Below, in pieces: positions 2,463-43,153 of a stretch of 43,153 nucleotides of DNA. The DNA is from a virus. Every line of letters starts with the position of its first letter. Positions within the stretch are counted from its first letter, which is position 1. The stretch spans positions 1 through 43,153 of the IMG/VR virus record IMGVR_UViG_3300042868_003035; one strand, 5' to 3'. The notes below the pieces were generated by a model, which was not told where the DNA came from, did no database searches, and was given only the letters and a program-made list of their open reading frames with translations. The position numbers were made by a program, and so were the translations under genes.

Positions 2463-2469
2463 GCCTGAG

Positions 2470-2492
2470 CTTACTAAGTTGCCCATCTATAA
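2470..2492 (+). repeat. TCTATAA-type intergenic motif, copy C
   Basis: This copy begins CTTACTAAGTTGCC and ends CATCTATAA, resembling the copy at 3050-3071 and, more loosely, those at 899 and 15889. It overlaps a small stem GCCCA...TGGGC (2481-2502) followed by TTCTT, so it might also act as a weak terminator or processing hairpin. Confidence 0.5.
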
Positions 2493-2539
2493 AATGGTGG
2501 GCTTCTTAGTGCGCTTATGCACTGCTTTAAGGAGAAATT

Positions 2540-2923
2540 ATGACGCATCAAGAGTGGATTACCGCAACTATTGACAAATACAACAGAGGCTCGCCTAGTG
2601 TCGATTACGCCAAAACGGCGAAGGACTTGCGAACAACGGCCGGGGAAATCCTTGAAGAGGCCGCCAAGCAAGAGGCTAAGGCCGCTGCTCAGGCGGTTAA
2701 GGATGCGCTTATTGAGCGTACAAAGAAAGAAGAGATTCTCGCTCAAACTACCGCGATTATCTTGGCAGACTTGCGTAGGCTTATGTCAAGCAACGCTGTG
2801 CACGTTTCGGCGCAGCCGTCCTATGCCGATCACCGCGAAGCACTAAACCCTTTGCTCAAGACCTATGGCTACCGCCTAGTACTTGTCGGTGACAAGAGCA
2901 GCGCAGCTATTGTGGCCTTGTAA
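2540..2923 (+). CDS. Early protein of unknown function, helical
   Basis: A 127-residue protein with no recognised family. The ATG has a strong AAGGAG at 2529-2534. Residues about 30-65 are Ala/Glu/Lys-rich and likely form a long helix or coiled coil; the C-terminal 45 residues are more globular and end in hydrophobic residues. A small hairpin (AGTGC...GCACT) lies between the previous gene and this ribosome binding site. It belongs to the early group expressed from the host-type promoters. A role against host functions is only positional inference. Confidence 0.82.
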   Translation: MTHQEWITATIDKYNRGSPSVDYAKTAKDLRTTAGEILEEAAKQEAKAAAQAVKDALIERTKKEEILAQTTAIILADLRRLMSSNAVHVSAQPSYADHREALNPLLKTYGYRLVLVGDKSSAAIVAL

Positions 2924-3049
2924 AAGTGGTCTAGTCCACCCTATAGCACGGCTATTAAATCGGACTCGCATCAGTTCTGAGCTTCCCTGCGTTACATGGA
3001 AACTCTGACCAGTTTAGCGGATAATGCCTAACCCGCTAAGCAAAGACAG

Positions 3050-3071
3050 CTTACTAATTACCTGTCTATAA
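3050..3071 (+). repeat. TCTATAA-type intergenic motif, copy D
   Basis: Begins CTTACTAATTACC and ends TGTCTATAA, closely parallel to 2470-2492. The recurrence in consecutive early intergenic regions suggests a functional site such as a promoter or RNA processing element. Confidence 0.5.
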
Positions 3072-3099
3072 ACTACTCAATTAGCGCTTGATAAAGTTA

Positions 3100-3142
3100 T
3101 CCTTAGCCTACTGGTTTAGTCATTTTTCCAGTAGGGCTAGGA
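3100..3142 (+). promoter_or_regulatory. Long hairpin upstream of early gene (possible RNase III site)
   Basis: Bases 3100-3114 (TCCTTAGCCTACTGG) pair with 3128-3142 (CCAGTAGGGCTAGGA) with a small internal mismatch, around a 13-base loop. No T run follows, so it is not a typical terminator. Long imperfect hairpins between early genes are the form of the RNase III processing sites in T7 early mRNA; this parallel is inference. Confidence 0.6.
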
Positions 3143-3165
3143 TAGATTTAACTAAGGAGATGTAA

Positions 3166-3372
3166 ATGGACTTGATACTTGAAAACTACGACAGGACCGC
3201 TCTCAAGGCCATGCTATACCGCAGGCCTGATTTGTATAATCAGCATAAATCTATGCCGCGCCTCACTGTAGAAGCTATACGCTATATCAGACAGCGCTTT
3301 GGCTTTGCACTTTTCGAGTCTAACCAGCTTGTTCAATTCTTAATAGCCCAACAGGAGAAACTGAATGCCTAA
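3166..3372 (+). CDS. Small early protein, unknown function
   Basis: A 68-residue, mostly helical, basic protein. The start is supported by AAGGAG at 3154-3159. Nothing is recognised in it. It overlaps the next gene by eight bases, indicating translational coupling in an early operon that continues through 3616. Confidence 0.8.
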   Translation: MDLILENYDRTALKAMLYRRPDLYNQHKSMPRLTVEAIRYIRQRFGFALFESNQLVQFLIAQQEKLNA

Positions 3373-3616
3373 AACTATTCATGATGTCGCTAGGGACATA
3401 CTGTCTGAGTCCGAGTTGCCTAAACTGGACAGTGGCCTTTGTTTTCTGTTTATGCAGCGAGCTTACGGTAACACTCTTGATTTAAGCATTTGGGCAGCCA
3501 TTAGAGCGTTTATGCCTATTGATGCACTCTATTTGCCTACACCCGGACATTGGACTGACCAGCGCCTTAATTGCGTCATCCTGCTTGCCATAACCGACCC
3601 TGAGGAGTTCGAGTAA
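3365..3616 (+). CDS. Small early protein, unknown function
   Basis: An 83-residue protein with AGGAG at 3353-3357 ahead of its ATG. It has hydrophobic helical segments in its middle but no clear membrane span. Its stop codon overlaps the start of the kinase-like gene (TAATG at 3614-3618), so the two are probably co-translated. No family is recognised. Confidence 0.8.
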   Translation: MPKTIHDVARDILSESELPKLDSGLCFLFMQRAYGNTLDLSIWAAIRAFMPIDALYLPTPGHWTDQRLNCVILLAITDPEEFE

Positions 3617-4158
3617 TGTACCAACAAGAAATGTTCTCTCAGGGCCTTTTCCGTGACGCCAAGTTTTTAGGCGCTGGCACCTTTGGCCATGTGCATGATA
3701 TAGGCAATGGCTGGGTGGTTAAGTATGCCTCGGTAGATGGCACGCTAAACTATCTTGAGTGGTGCCGTCATAAGCAAGCTATAGGCGAGCATATGTTGGG
3801 CATGCCTGTGATAGACTCTTTAGTAGTCTTCGACACTTGCACTTATATGGTAACTATGCGAAAATATGAAAAGCTAAGGCTTGGAGATTTCGAATACTCT
3901 ACTTTCCGTAATTATCATGACGACCACGACTACGACTTGTTAACGGATGCTGGTTTTGAGCATGAGCACCTTGTTGAGCTATTCGCGGCTTATAGCGACT
4001 ATTCCTTTAGCAGCATTGGACTGGAGCGTGTCAATTTCGATTTACACGCCGATAATCTCATGCTAGACGGCAATACAGTAATTGCTACTGACCCTTGCTG
4101 TGGTGCTTACGTCTGCCATGACGATAGGCTATCTCCACCAGAACTAGTCTTGCAATGA
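3616..4158 (+). CDS. Miniature protein-kinase-like protein
   Basis: This 180-residue protein carries the main landmarks of the protein kinase fold. Residues 19-26 (GAGTFGHV) resemble the Gly-rich ATP loop, K36 in VVKYA is placed like the ATP-anchoring lysine, D142-L-H-A-D-N147 matches the catalytic-loop pattern D-L-x-x-x-N, and T158-D159-P sits where DFG is expected. It is much shorter than ordinary kinases (about 250 residues), so helical parts of the C-lobe are reduced. T7 carries an early kinase (gp0.7) that phosphorylates host proteins; the similar early position suggests an equivalent role, though the sequences are not shown to be related. Aminoglycoside-kinase-like folds are the main alternative. 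Confidence 0.65.
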   Translation: MYQQEMFSQGLFRDAKFLGAGTFGHVHDIGNGWVVKYASVDGTLNYLEWCRHKQAIGEHMLGMPVIDSLVVFDTCTYMVTMRKYEKLRLGDFEYSTFRNYHDDHDYDLLTDAGFEHEHLVELFAAYSDYSFSSIGLERVNFDLHADNLMLDGNTVIATDPCCGAYVCHDDRLSPPELVLQ

Positions 4159-4334
4159 GCCTCGCTAACAGGCTTCAAGACGCAGCAGCGGTGCCACTGC
4201 CTAGGCACATACGTGATGCTGCTAATGAGATAGACGCATCTGTTCAGGCTAAGTTGCGACCTAGCGGTGAGCTTGTTGCGCTAATTCGTAGTTGGATATT
4301 TAACACCGAGAGGAGTAATCGTTATGGTAAATAG
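4155..4334 (+). CDS. Small early protein, unknown function
   Basis: A 59-residue frame starting at an ATG that overlaps the stop of the kinase-like gene (ATGA at 4155-4158) and ending TAG at 4332-4334. It is predicted helical with mixed charge. Overlap on both sides (the next gene starts at 4324) supports it as a coupled operon gene. No function is recognised. Confidence 0.7.
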   Translation: MSLANRLQDAAAVPLPRHIRDAANEIDASVQAKLRPSGELVALIRSWIFNTERSNRYGK

Positions 4335-16778: not shown

Positions 16779-17715
16779 GTACATTGTGCATAAGGCGGTT
16801 GAACTAGACAGCCTGAGCGCTAAAGCTATCAGTGCTATTAACGAGCAAGAATGGATCATTAGCCCCAAGTATGACGGGTGTCATGCTGTCTTTTGCTTTC
16901 TACAAGGCCAGCCATTAGTCACACTATCCCGTAGTGGCGAGAGCGTAGCCAGCATGGGGCACATAGCGAGAGGCTTGCTTGACGTTTATCCTTGGCTGGC
17001 GACCTCAGAACGTATCGCTATTTGCGGCGAGGCTTGGGCGCTAGGGCTAGAGTTCAATGAGATTAGCGGCATGTTCCGTAGGCACAGCAAGCAAGAGTCT
17101 TTGCAGTTTGTCCCATTTGATGTTGTGCCTTACGACTTTAATGCTGATACGTTTGCCGACCCGTCCGTATTGCTCGGGCAGTTCGACGGTATACCATATA
17201 TGGTGCCTTATGCTAATCGGCTTCGTTCGTTATTGATCACGCGCTCTCACGACTATACCCACCCACGAATAGTTGAACCCCAGTACATGACTATCCACGA
17301 TAGCCTGAGTGAGGCCAAACACATGGCTGATGAAGCCGCTAGAGTGTTTAAGCAGAGCACGACAGGCGCTTATGATGGTACAATCCTAGCGCAGGCTAAC
17401 GGGCTATATCAAGTAGGCTCAGGCAAAGGCGGCGAGTTCATTAAGTGCAAGCCGTTGCTTAGCGATACAGTTACAGTCAACGCCATATTTACTGCAACCG
17501 GAGATAAGACCGGCAAGAACACGCTCGCCCTAGGCTTTCTGTTAGCCGGTAAGAAACAGAAAGTTAGCACCGGACTTACCCAAGCTCAGGTCGATGCGTT
17601 TACGGCAGACCCCGGACAGATCATCGGGCAGCGCATAGAGGTCGAAGCTATGGGCTTAACAGTTAATGGCTTACTACGAGAGCCGCGCTTTAAAGGAATC
17701 AGGACAGACGCATGA
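16771..17715 (+). CDS. ATP-dependent DNA ligase
   Basis: A 314-residue ligase that seals nicks in phage DNA. The nucleotidyl-lysine motif is K33-Y-D-G36. Further motifs are the YDGTILAQ stretch near residue 205 and the lysines of EFIKCKPL (motif V). An OB-fold-like C-terminal part ends the protein. The length is like T7 gp1.3 ligase. Its stop overlaps the RNA polymerase start (ATGA at 17712-17715). Confidence 0.93.
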   Translation: MSKYIVHKAVELDSLSAKAISAINEQEWIISPKYDGCHAVFCFLQGQPLVTLSRSGESVASMGHIARGLLDVYPWLATSERIAICGEAWALGLEFNEISGMFRRHSKQESLQFVPFDVVPYDFNADTFADPSVLLGQFDGIPYMVPYANRLRSLLITRSHDYTHPRIVEPQYMTIHDSLSEAKHMADEAARVFKQSTTGAYDGTILAQANGLYQVGSGKGGEFIKCKPLLSDTVTVNAIFTATGDKTGKNTLALGFLLAGKKQKVSTGLTQAQVDAFTADPGQIIGQRIEVEAMGLTVNGLLREPRFKGIRTDA

Positions 17716-20153
17716 CCCTTTTAAACCAGCGAGAGATAGAAGAGCTTATGTACTCTGGCGGCATACGCCGTGCGGAGGCCGCGATGAACAAGGCCGAAGA
17801 GCAAGGCCGCTCAGATCAAAACCCTTACGCTAAGGAGATTTTTCGTGAATACGTATTGCCGCTTGCTGGGGCCATCAAGGCCGACATTGAAGCTAAACGC
17901 GCAGGCCGAAGGCAAGCGCACGTTATGCTACTTAGTGGACTCGACATCGAGGCCGTTGCGTTCTTGTCTATTAGACACGCCATCACAACCCTACTCGGGG
18001 CTAAGCCCACAGACCACAGATCGCTTGGCTATGGCATCGGTAGGACGGTACACAGAGAACTAATCCTGTGCCAGATCAAAGAGGCAGCGCCGGAGTTATA
18101 CCAAACTCTAAGCCAAGACCTTGGCCGCAGACTGTCTAAGGACGAGCGGCATAAGCTAACAGTGTTCACCATGCAGGCCAAGCAGCGAGGCATCGACGTT
18201 ACCGAGTGGAACCTAGGCAGTAGAGAGCAAGTGGGTTTCTACATCATGGGTTTACTCGAAGTAATGGGGCTTATCTCAATCGGCAGCGAAGTGCGAAAGG
18301 GCTACAAGCGCGACACTAGGGACGTAAGCCTACACCCAGACATCATCGAAGAGATTAGCAAGGTCAAGGCTTACGTCTCATTGACTATGCCGGTATATGG
18401 GCCGTGCGTAGAGCCCCCATTTGACTGGGAGTTTGGCGTTACCGGTGGCTTTCACACTAGGGCCATGACCCATGCTAACCCAACCCTAGTACACGGCAGG
18501 TCTACCGCTAGGGCGCGTGGTAGGGCAGCAGACATGCCGACAGTATACTCAGCCGTCAATGCTTTGCAGCGTACAGCGTGGGCTATCAACGTGCGATTAC
18601 TCAACACGATGTACGCTGTAGCTAAACAGTTCTCGACCAAAGAGATTGTGTCGTTGGCCGACACCCCCGCCCCACTAAAGCCCGAGTGGCTTAAGGAAGA
18701 TTGGACTAAAGAGGCTAAGGAGAACTGGCCTGCTGATAAGCTTGCCGAGTTCAAGAAATGGAAGTGGGATACGGCTGAGTGGCATACGCAGCGCAAGCTG
18801 TTAGGTTCGCGCTATGCTAGGTTCTATTCAGCTACCCGCACTGCCGAAATGTTCAGAGAGTATCCGGCAATATACTTTGTGTACTTTGCTGACTCTCGCG
18901 GCAGGCTCTACCCATTGACTCAAGGTGTAAGCCCCCAAGGCTCGGACATGGGCAAGGCCCTACTGCGCTTTGCAGAAGGCAAGCCTTTGAAGGATGCGTA
19001 TGCAGTGCGCTGGTTCCACGTGCAGGGTGCTAACAAGTGGGGCTTCGATAAGGCCACGCTCGATGATCGCATGGCGTGGGTTAAAGAGCGTAAGGATTTA
19101 ATCCTATCTTTCGCTGCTGATCCCGTTAACAACGTGGGCTGGACAGAAGCTGGTGATCCGCTACAGTTCCTAGCTTGGTGCTTCGAGTACGAAGAGTACT
19201 GCAATTCGCCTGATACTTTCCTGTCTTATCTTCCGATCAGTATGGACGGTAGCTGTAATGGGCTACAGAACCTCAGCGCTATGTTCCGAGACGAGATAGG
19301 GGGTGCTGCTACTAACCTGACGAACAACGCGGTGATGCGCGACATCTACGCTGACGTAGCCAAAGCGGCCACTGTGAGGCTAGAGGCCATGCTGCCGAAG
19401 CTAGACGCCGAAGAGGCGGCAATCGTTAGGCAGTGGATAGCCCATGGTGTAGAACGCAAGGCTGTAAAGCGCTCAGTCATGACTACACCTTATGGCGTAA
19501 CAGAGCGCACCGCTACCGAGTACATCGTCGACGACTACCTACGTGAAAAGTCAGGCCCTACCTTCGACCCTAACCAGTACCGCAAAGCTGCCAAGCTACT
19601 CATGTCTGCGGTGTGGCCTGCTATTGGTGACGTAGTTGTTAAGGGCCGAGAGGCTATGGACTGGCTTAGGAAATCTGCACGCCAGATCATGAAAGAGACA
19701 GGCACTAAGACTATCACGTGGACTACACCTAGCGGATTCCCAGCATGTCAGGATTACTTCGAGGCTGAGGTACATAGGATCAACACCCACCTACACGGCC
19801 CTGTCAAGATCAGAGTGCTTAGCGAAACAGACGAGCCTGACAAGGCACGGCATGCTAGTGGCCTCGCTCCGAACTTTGTTCATAGCCTAGACGCAGCGCA
19901 CTTGCACTTGACCACTGCGGATGCTAGCAGGCAAGGTATCACTGCGCTGGCAATGATACACGACGACTACGGTACACACGCTGCTGATTCTCAGTTGCTG
20001 TTTGACATTATCCGTAAGCAGTTTGTTGCGATGTACTTAGCCTGTGACCCACCGGCTATGTTCTACGAACAGTACCCCAAGATCGACCTACCTCCTGCTA
20101 AGGGCAACTTAGACATCATGGAAGTGCTTGAGTCGGACTTCTTTTTTAGTTAA
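17712..20153 (+). CDS. Single-subunit phage RNA polymerase (T7-like)
   Basis: An 813-residue DNA-directed RNA polymerase that transcribes the phage's middle and late genes from its own promoters. Catalytic residues align with T7: D512 (SMDGSCNGLQN), K586 and Y594 (KRSVMTTPYG), and H750-D751 (MIHDDYGTHAAD). Also visible are DSRGRLYPLTQG and the C-terminal ESDFFFS, which mirrors the T7 polymerase end. The gene lies after ligase and directly before structural genes, as in phiKMV-like phages rather than T7, where it is the first early gene. It would therefore be expressed at the end of the host-driven transcript. Confidence 0.97.
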   Translation: MTLLNQREIEELMYSGGIRRAEAAMNKAEEQGRSDQNPYAKEIFREYVLPLAGAIKADIEAKRAGRRQAHVMLLSGLDIEAVAFLSIRHAITTLLGAKPTDHRSLGYGIGRTVHRELILCQIKEAAPELYQTLSQDLGRRLSKDERHKLTVFTMQAKQRGIDVTEWNLGSREQVGFYIMGLLEVMGLISIGSEVRKGYKRDTRDVSLHPDIIEEISKVKAYVSLTMPVYGPCVEPPFDWEFGVTGGFHTRAMTHANPTLVHGRSTARARGRAADMPTVYSAVNALQRTAWAINVRLLNTMYAVAKQFSTKEIVSLADTPAPLKPEWLKEDWTKEAKENWPADKLAEFKKWKWDTAEWHTQRKLLGSRYARFYSATRTAEMFREYPAIYFVYFADSRGRLYPLTQGVSPQGSDMGKALLRFAEGKPLKDAYAVRWFHVQGANKWGFDKATLDDRMAWVKERKDLILSFAADPVNNVGWTEAGDPLQFLAWCFEYEEYCNSPDTFLSYLPISMDGSCNGLQNLSAMFRDEIGGAATNLTNNAVMRDIYADVAKAATVRLEAMLPKLDAEEAAIVRQWIAHGVERKAVKRSVMTTPYGVTERTATEYIVDDYLREKSGPTFDPNQYRKAAKLLMSAVWPAIGDVVVKGREAMDWLRKSARQIMKETGTKTITWTTPSGFPACQDYFEAEVHRINTHLHGPVKIRVLSETDEPDKARHASGLAPNFVHSLDAAHLHLTTADASRQGITALAMIHDDYGTHAADSQLLFDIIRKQFVAMYLACDPPAMFYEQYPKIDLPPAKGNLDIMEVLESDFFFS

Positions 20154-42616: not shown

Positions 42617-43153
42617 TGAGTGCATATATTGCTGATAATCAGCTACCGTTTAAGTATACGGCTACAGGCGCTATTGCGCTTAATGCCGTAATCTTTGATT
42701 GGGATACGCAAGAAGTAGAAGCACCGGGCTTAGCCCTGCATGTGCATGCTTTAGGAGTAGGCTGTGTGCTTACGCCTGAGTGGAGCAGCGACGAAGTAAA
42801 CTGGCGGGATGGCTGGATTGAGCCTACCGTGCTTAACAGTGTAATAGTAGCTACTATTACAGCGGCTGGGTTGTATAACGTGCCTAAGCTCGCAAGGTTC
42901 ATCCGGCTACGTGTGTCTACAGCCCAAAGCTCAGGCACTACTACGTTGTCCGTAACCAAGAGCTATGCAGACTTCCGCACTGCTACAGCTAGCGGTACTA
43001 GTGCAATGGCAGGAGCGGCTGCTCACGATGCCGTTATTCTCGGCAACCCAGTGCGTATTGGCGCGAGGGCTATAACAGCTAACTACGCGGCTGTAGCAAC
43101 AGGTGACGTAGCAGACTTAGTGTGTACCCTTACTGGGGCTCAAATTACTAAAG
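42616..43153 (+). CDS. Virion/tail-associated protein, N-terminal part (continues at base 1)
   Basis: The gene starts at ATG 42616, overlapping the o-spanin stop (TAATG at 42614-42618), and stays open to the window end. The last 127 bases repeat the window start in the same frame. Joined, it encodes 291 residues from 42616-43026 plus 1-465. The N-terminal part (YIADNQLPFKYTATGAIALN, then WSSDEVNWRDGWIEPTVLN) is beta-rich and looks structural. It is not recognised as a known family. Confidence 0.85.
   Translation, partial: MSAYIADNQLPFKYTATGAIALNAVIFDWDTQEVEAPGLALHVHALGVGCVLTPEWSSDEVNWRDGWIEPTVLNSVIVATITAAGLYNVPKLARFIRLRVSTAQSSGTTTLSVTKSYADFRTATASGTSAMAGAAAHDAVILGNPVRIGARAITANYAAVATGDVADLVCTLTGAQITK
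43027..43153. repeat. Right copy of 127-bp terminal overlap
   Basis: Identical to bases 1-127. Removing one copy gives a circular unit of 43,026 bp with an uninterrupted gene across the join. Confidence 0.95.

Follow-up and report, generated by a model that had tools for sequence, protein, structure and literature searches.

Positions 3616–4158 of the phage DNA analyzed here very probably encode a single-domain protein kinase of the T7 gp0.7 type, which we infer is made immediately early in infection and phosphorylates serine and threonine residues of host proteins. The 180-amino-acid product is homologous to the T7 gp0.7 family, has a kinase fold by structure prediction, and retains the catalytic residues. 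The shutoff domain and the N-terminal hairpin of T7 gp0.7 are absent. The kinase assignment is supported by homology and fold, and from these activity is predicted.

The window (the whole stretch of 43,153 nucleotides) is a phage genome carrying genes for a DNA polymerase, a single-subunit RNA polymerase (17712–20153), and T7-like structural proteins. Among isolates, it is closest to Curvibacter phage P26059B (Autographiviridae, Kalppathivirus), whose helicase is 80% identical. An exact 127-base terminal repeat (1–127 and 43027–43153) could be either a real end repeat or an overlap from circular assembly. The early region is headed by a cluster of sigma-70-type promoter matches on the plus strand (991–1260), which are at 991, 1114, 1174, and 1232 and fit the consensus at 11 or 12 of 12 bases. 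Two of these matches are perfect, and the cluster lies within an ∼1.5-kb stretch that holds no convincing gene. A perfect 26-base tandem duplication is present just past it at 1279–1330. Between positions 1 and 8600, 19 sigma-70-type sites were found versus 9.8 expected. The early-region location that a previous sequence-only reading had assigned to the kinase gene agrees with its position downstream from strong host-type promoter matches, as judged by consensus, in an Autographiviridae genome.

The open reading frame (ORF) begins with an ATG at 3616 and ends with a TGA at 4158. It lies on the plus strand, as do the two ORFs that overlap its ends. A Shine–Dalgarno sequence (GAGGAG, 3602–3607) is located 8 nucleotides 5′ of the start codon. 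The stop codon of an upstream ORF of 83 amino acids (3365–3616), for which there is no PHROG match, overlaps the kinase start (TAATG). Similarly, the start codon of a downstream ORF of 59 amino acids (4155–4334), whose product is 37% identical to that of a P26059B gene, overlaps the kinase stop (ATGA). The good ribosome site and the overlaps with both neighbors place the kinase gene within a compact early operon. Farther upstream, the gene at 1941–2462 shares 64% identity with another P26059B gene. The stretch from 2463 to 4154, which includes the kinase gene and three small ORFs, is unmatched in that phage although both flanks match, and the corresponding 20 kb of P26059B that was examined yielded no kinase. 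P26059B lacks or has replaced this stretch. A kinase segment that is unmatched between matched flanks likely behaves as an exchangeable early-region cassette.

The kinase motifs that had been noticed in the sequence are real and occur in the right order within a 180-residue ORF, as confirmed from the sequence and by shuffle tests. These are a Gly-rich loop GAGTFGHV (G19-A-G21-T-F-G24-H-V26; 3670–3693), which corresponds to strands β1 and β2 of an AlphaFold2 model, an ATP-anchoring lysine (K36; 3721–3723) in strand β3 (residues 33–38 of the model), a catalytic loop D142-L-H144-A-D-N147 (4039–4056), and a TDP motif (T158-D159-P160; 4087–4095) that carries the metal-binding aspartate in the place of DFG. 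Helix αC of the model (residues 41–55; 3736–3780) includes the conserved residues D41 and Y46. The strict motif pattern was not recovered in any of 20,000 composition-preserving shuffles of the protein, nor was it found in any other open frame of the window. In an alignment of 31 family sequences, G21, K36, Y46, P64, Y77, D142, H144, N147, D159, and P160 are invariant, and G19 and T158 are nearly so. Helix αC has no clearly conserved glutamate, and the window protein does not carry the Hanks-type motifs HRD, DFG, and APE, having N-F-D142 for HRD and TDP for DFG. Only 20 residues lie C-terminal of TDP, and the substrate-binding C-lobe past this motif is almost absent.

Sequence comparisons lead to the T7 gp0.7 kinases. 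The protein matches phrog_15752, the T7 gp0.7-type kinase family of PHROGs (E = 1.2e-9), as do all 31 family members, this protein included. A tblastn search returned annotated protein kinases in Pseudomonas putida phages, a Klebsiella phage, and Caulobacter phage Cd1; identity to the P. putida phage and Cd1 kinases is 24–29%, with a best E of 7e-4. When viral contigs were scanned with the protein sequence alone, no relative emerged. Relatives surfaced when alignments were used as queries against IMG/VR, and these include a 190-amino-acid protein (L007; 33% identity, E = 9e-21), a 224-amino-acid protein (L008), and many T7-like proteins. The second of these is of the Ralstonia phage RSB1 type and matches T7 gp0.7 itself (E = 2e-8), which provides a transitive link. 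With both the window protein and L007 held out, a family profile scored the window protein at 38.0 bits, versus 10.6 bits for the best of 20,000 shuffles, and a profile made only from T7-type members also selects the protein (E = 2.3e-5 within that test set). A profile search of PDB sequences yielded weak kinase matches (best E = 0.12). Pfam gave neither a kinase nor an APH match for the protein; its best match, Fibrinogen_C (E = 0.044), and the ficolin matches are below threshold and were rejected as chance. A DNA-level search of phages returned nothing, and there was no match among plasmids.

Structure prediction and fold searching, which had been proposed as checks on the kinase assignment, gave a kinase fold with phage-kinase matches. 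The AlphaFold2 model made with the family alignment (pLDDT 80.5, pTM 0.77) has its elements in the order β1-β2-β3-αC-β4-β5-αD-αE-catalytic loop-TDP. Matches among viral structures are led by phage kinases, with E values from 4.5e-8, and include kinases of 182, 199, and 224 residues. When compared with PKR by VIA-align, the model gives a Z of 9.7 and an rmsd of 4.6 over 140 aligned residues. The PDB matches comprise both aminoglycoside phosphotransferases (APH-type) and protein kinases.

This last result raises the possibility that the protein is a kinase-fold phosphotransferase that acts on a small molecule, as aminoglycoside or fructosamine kinases do, and not on proteins. The top Foldseek matches in the PDB are APH(2'') and APH(4), albeit with low TM-scores of 0.3–0.45, and for a few family members Pfam gives weak hits to Fructosamin_kin and APH. 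The D-L-H-x-x-N loop also resembles the corresponding loop of APH enzymes. However, the helical part with which APH enzymes bind their substrates is absent, and there is no long C-lobe (180 versus ∼290 amino acids). Furthermore, the sequence homology leads to T7 gp0.7, which is a proven protein Ser/Thr kinase (PMC4858673). We therefore consider action on a small molecule unlikely.

The sequence-only reading had also placed the protein far below T7 gp0.7 and normal kinases in size. This is correct for the protein as a whole, but the homologous core of T7 gp0.7 is equally short. When a core profile was run over all fetched ORFs, ∼145–190 residues were matched in nearly every member, including T7 gp0.7, where the match covers residues 57–225 of 359. 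What varies is the sequence around the core. In Studiervirinae, T7 among them, ∼56 residues precede the core and 100–150 follow it, whereas in the kinases of Cd1 and Babayka 190–230 residues precede it and almost none follow. Neither the window protein nor L007 has much flanking the core on either side, and the sole core flank of L008 and L081 is a short N-terminal extension. In the window protein, the N-terminal helical region of T7 gp0.7 is absent (15 residues before β1 versus ∼70 in T7), as is the C-terminal shutoff domain (17 residues after the core). A shutoff-domain profile run across the window, where the gene might have been split, found nothing above noise.

A model of full-length T7 gp0.7 has N-terminal helices at residues 3–40, the core from 71 to ∼217, a low-confidence hinge at 220–229, and long helices past 230. 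Therefore, in T7 too, the kinase fold ends soon past the TDP motif. A core of normal size together with missing flanking domains indicates that the 180-residue protein is a core-only member of the family and not a shrunken kinase. In summary, the earlier interpretation is supported as far as a kinase-fold protein of the T7 gp0.7 type with the family's catalytic residues is concerned, whereas the proposal of an unusually miniaturized enzyme is not supported, since the core is of normal size, the missing parts are accessory, and core-only phage kinases of 182–224 amino acids are already annotated.

The most similar of these annotated proteins in length is ORF9 of Aquamicrobium phage P14 (182 amino acids), which was published in 2017 as a putative seryl/threonyl kinase (PMC5295034). 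It shares the early position (3559–4107) and likewise consists of the core without a shutoff domain. However, its identity to the window protein is ∼30%, its N terminus is longer, and it ends a few residues past its TDPLSF sequence. During later passaging, a 2-base deletion that extends the C terminus of ORF9 by 20 residues increased in frequency with one host, possibly by coincidence according to the authors (PMC7599783). The "protein kinase-like" product of Ralstonia phage RSB1 (224 amino acids, BFVD B5BTU3), a phage whose genome appears to be the same as L008, is also core-only and has the same motifs, but its N terminus is longer and its identity is 25%. Xylella phage Cota carries a further core-only relative of 199 amino acids. 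The closest relative found, L007, is from an uncultivated phage and is core-only; unlike the others it is unannotated, and its neighboring genes are mostly different. In the kinases of Caulobacter phage Cd1 and Brevundimonas phage Babayka, the core similarly ends ∼10 residues past TDP, but it follows an N-terminal extension of 190–230 residues that is absent here. The core is thus C-terminal in these proteins (L002:775–1908 and L004:931–1944), opposite to the order seen in T7. L081 carries two kinase-core genes that adjoin and overlap each other (735–1451 and 1390–1992; 238 and 200 amino acids), as does L082. These viral contigs of 58–80 kb are maybe not T7-like.

The core-only relatives also bear on whether the protein is an inactive or decaying remnant, that is, a pseudokinase that persisted once the shutoff domain had been lost. 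In favor of this, both domains that flank the core in T7 gp0.7 are absent, and the nearest isolate has no kinase in the region examined. In contrast, all catalytic residues are kept at ∼25–33% identity to relatives, and the frame is intact, preceded by a good ribosome site and overlapped by its neighbors. Independent core-only relatives exist in L007, RSB1, P14, and Cota. An inactive or decaying remnant is therefore quite improbable. The idea that the motifs are a coincidence in a protein unrelated to kinases, for which the Pfam results could be cited, has a negligible chance of being correct because it is contradicted by the held-out profile, which scores the protein well beyond any of 20,000 shuffles, the PHROG match, and the predicted kinase fold with its fold matches.

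For a T7 gp0.7-type kinase, a mechanism can be proposed. The protein would be made immediately after infection from promoters used by the host RNA polymerase. Mg-ATP would be bound via the Gly-rich loop, K36, N147, and D159, and D142 would serve as the catalytic base for phosphorylation of serine and threonine residues on many host proteins. In T7, the N-terminal ∼30 kDa of gp0.7 (T7PK) is a proven Ser/Thr kinase with RNase III as a substrate, and host transcription is shut off by the C-terminal ∼10 kDa (PMC4858673). The T7PK tested in vitro, at ∼30 kDa, includes the N-terminal helices that are missing from the 180-residue protein. The kinase domain of the T7 gp0.7 relative JSS1_004 phosphorylates and inactivates DndFGH, and in JSS1 both the kinase and the shutoff domains are required for the full anti-Dnd effect in vivo (PMC12345140).

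T7 gp0.7 (359 amino acids) and relatives such as JSS1_004 share with the window protein the homologous core, the D-x-H-x-x-N and TDP motifs, and a location in the early region of an Autographiviridae genome. The window protein is 26% identical to T7 gp0.7 over the aligned region, and differs from it in the absence of the N-terminal helices (3–40) and of the long, helical, basic shutoff domain (230–359). If it acts as T7PK and JSS1_004 do, the window protein would retune host transcription and RNA processing and may disarm defense proteins. The likeliest role would be the kinase half of the T7 gp0.7 and JSS1_004 program. The kinase gene does not code for the DNA-binding shutoff function of gp0.7, so transcription shutoff, if needed, would have to come from another gene. 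It is possible, but we hold this only tentatively, that the 180-residue core alone is an active kinase, among the smallest self-sufficient ones, and a dedicated counter-defense or takeover enzyme uncoupled from shutoff.

Phage proteins of the same size have already been annotated as kinases, and the window protein is therefore an ordinary member of its family. Core-only phage kinases are already annotated in P14, Cota, and RSB1, and no new kind of system is present here. The requirement of JSS1 for both domains means that phages with a kinase only pose a clear question. Core-only relatives provide a natural test of how much of T7 gp0.7 catalysis and the disarming of host defenses require, in a family that as a whole appears to phosphorylate proteins with an almost absent C-lobe.
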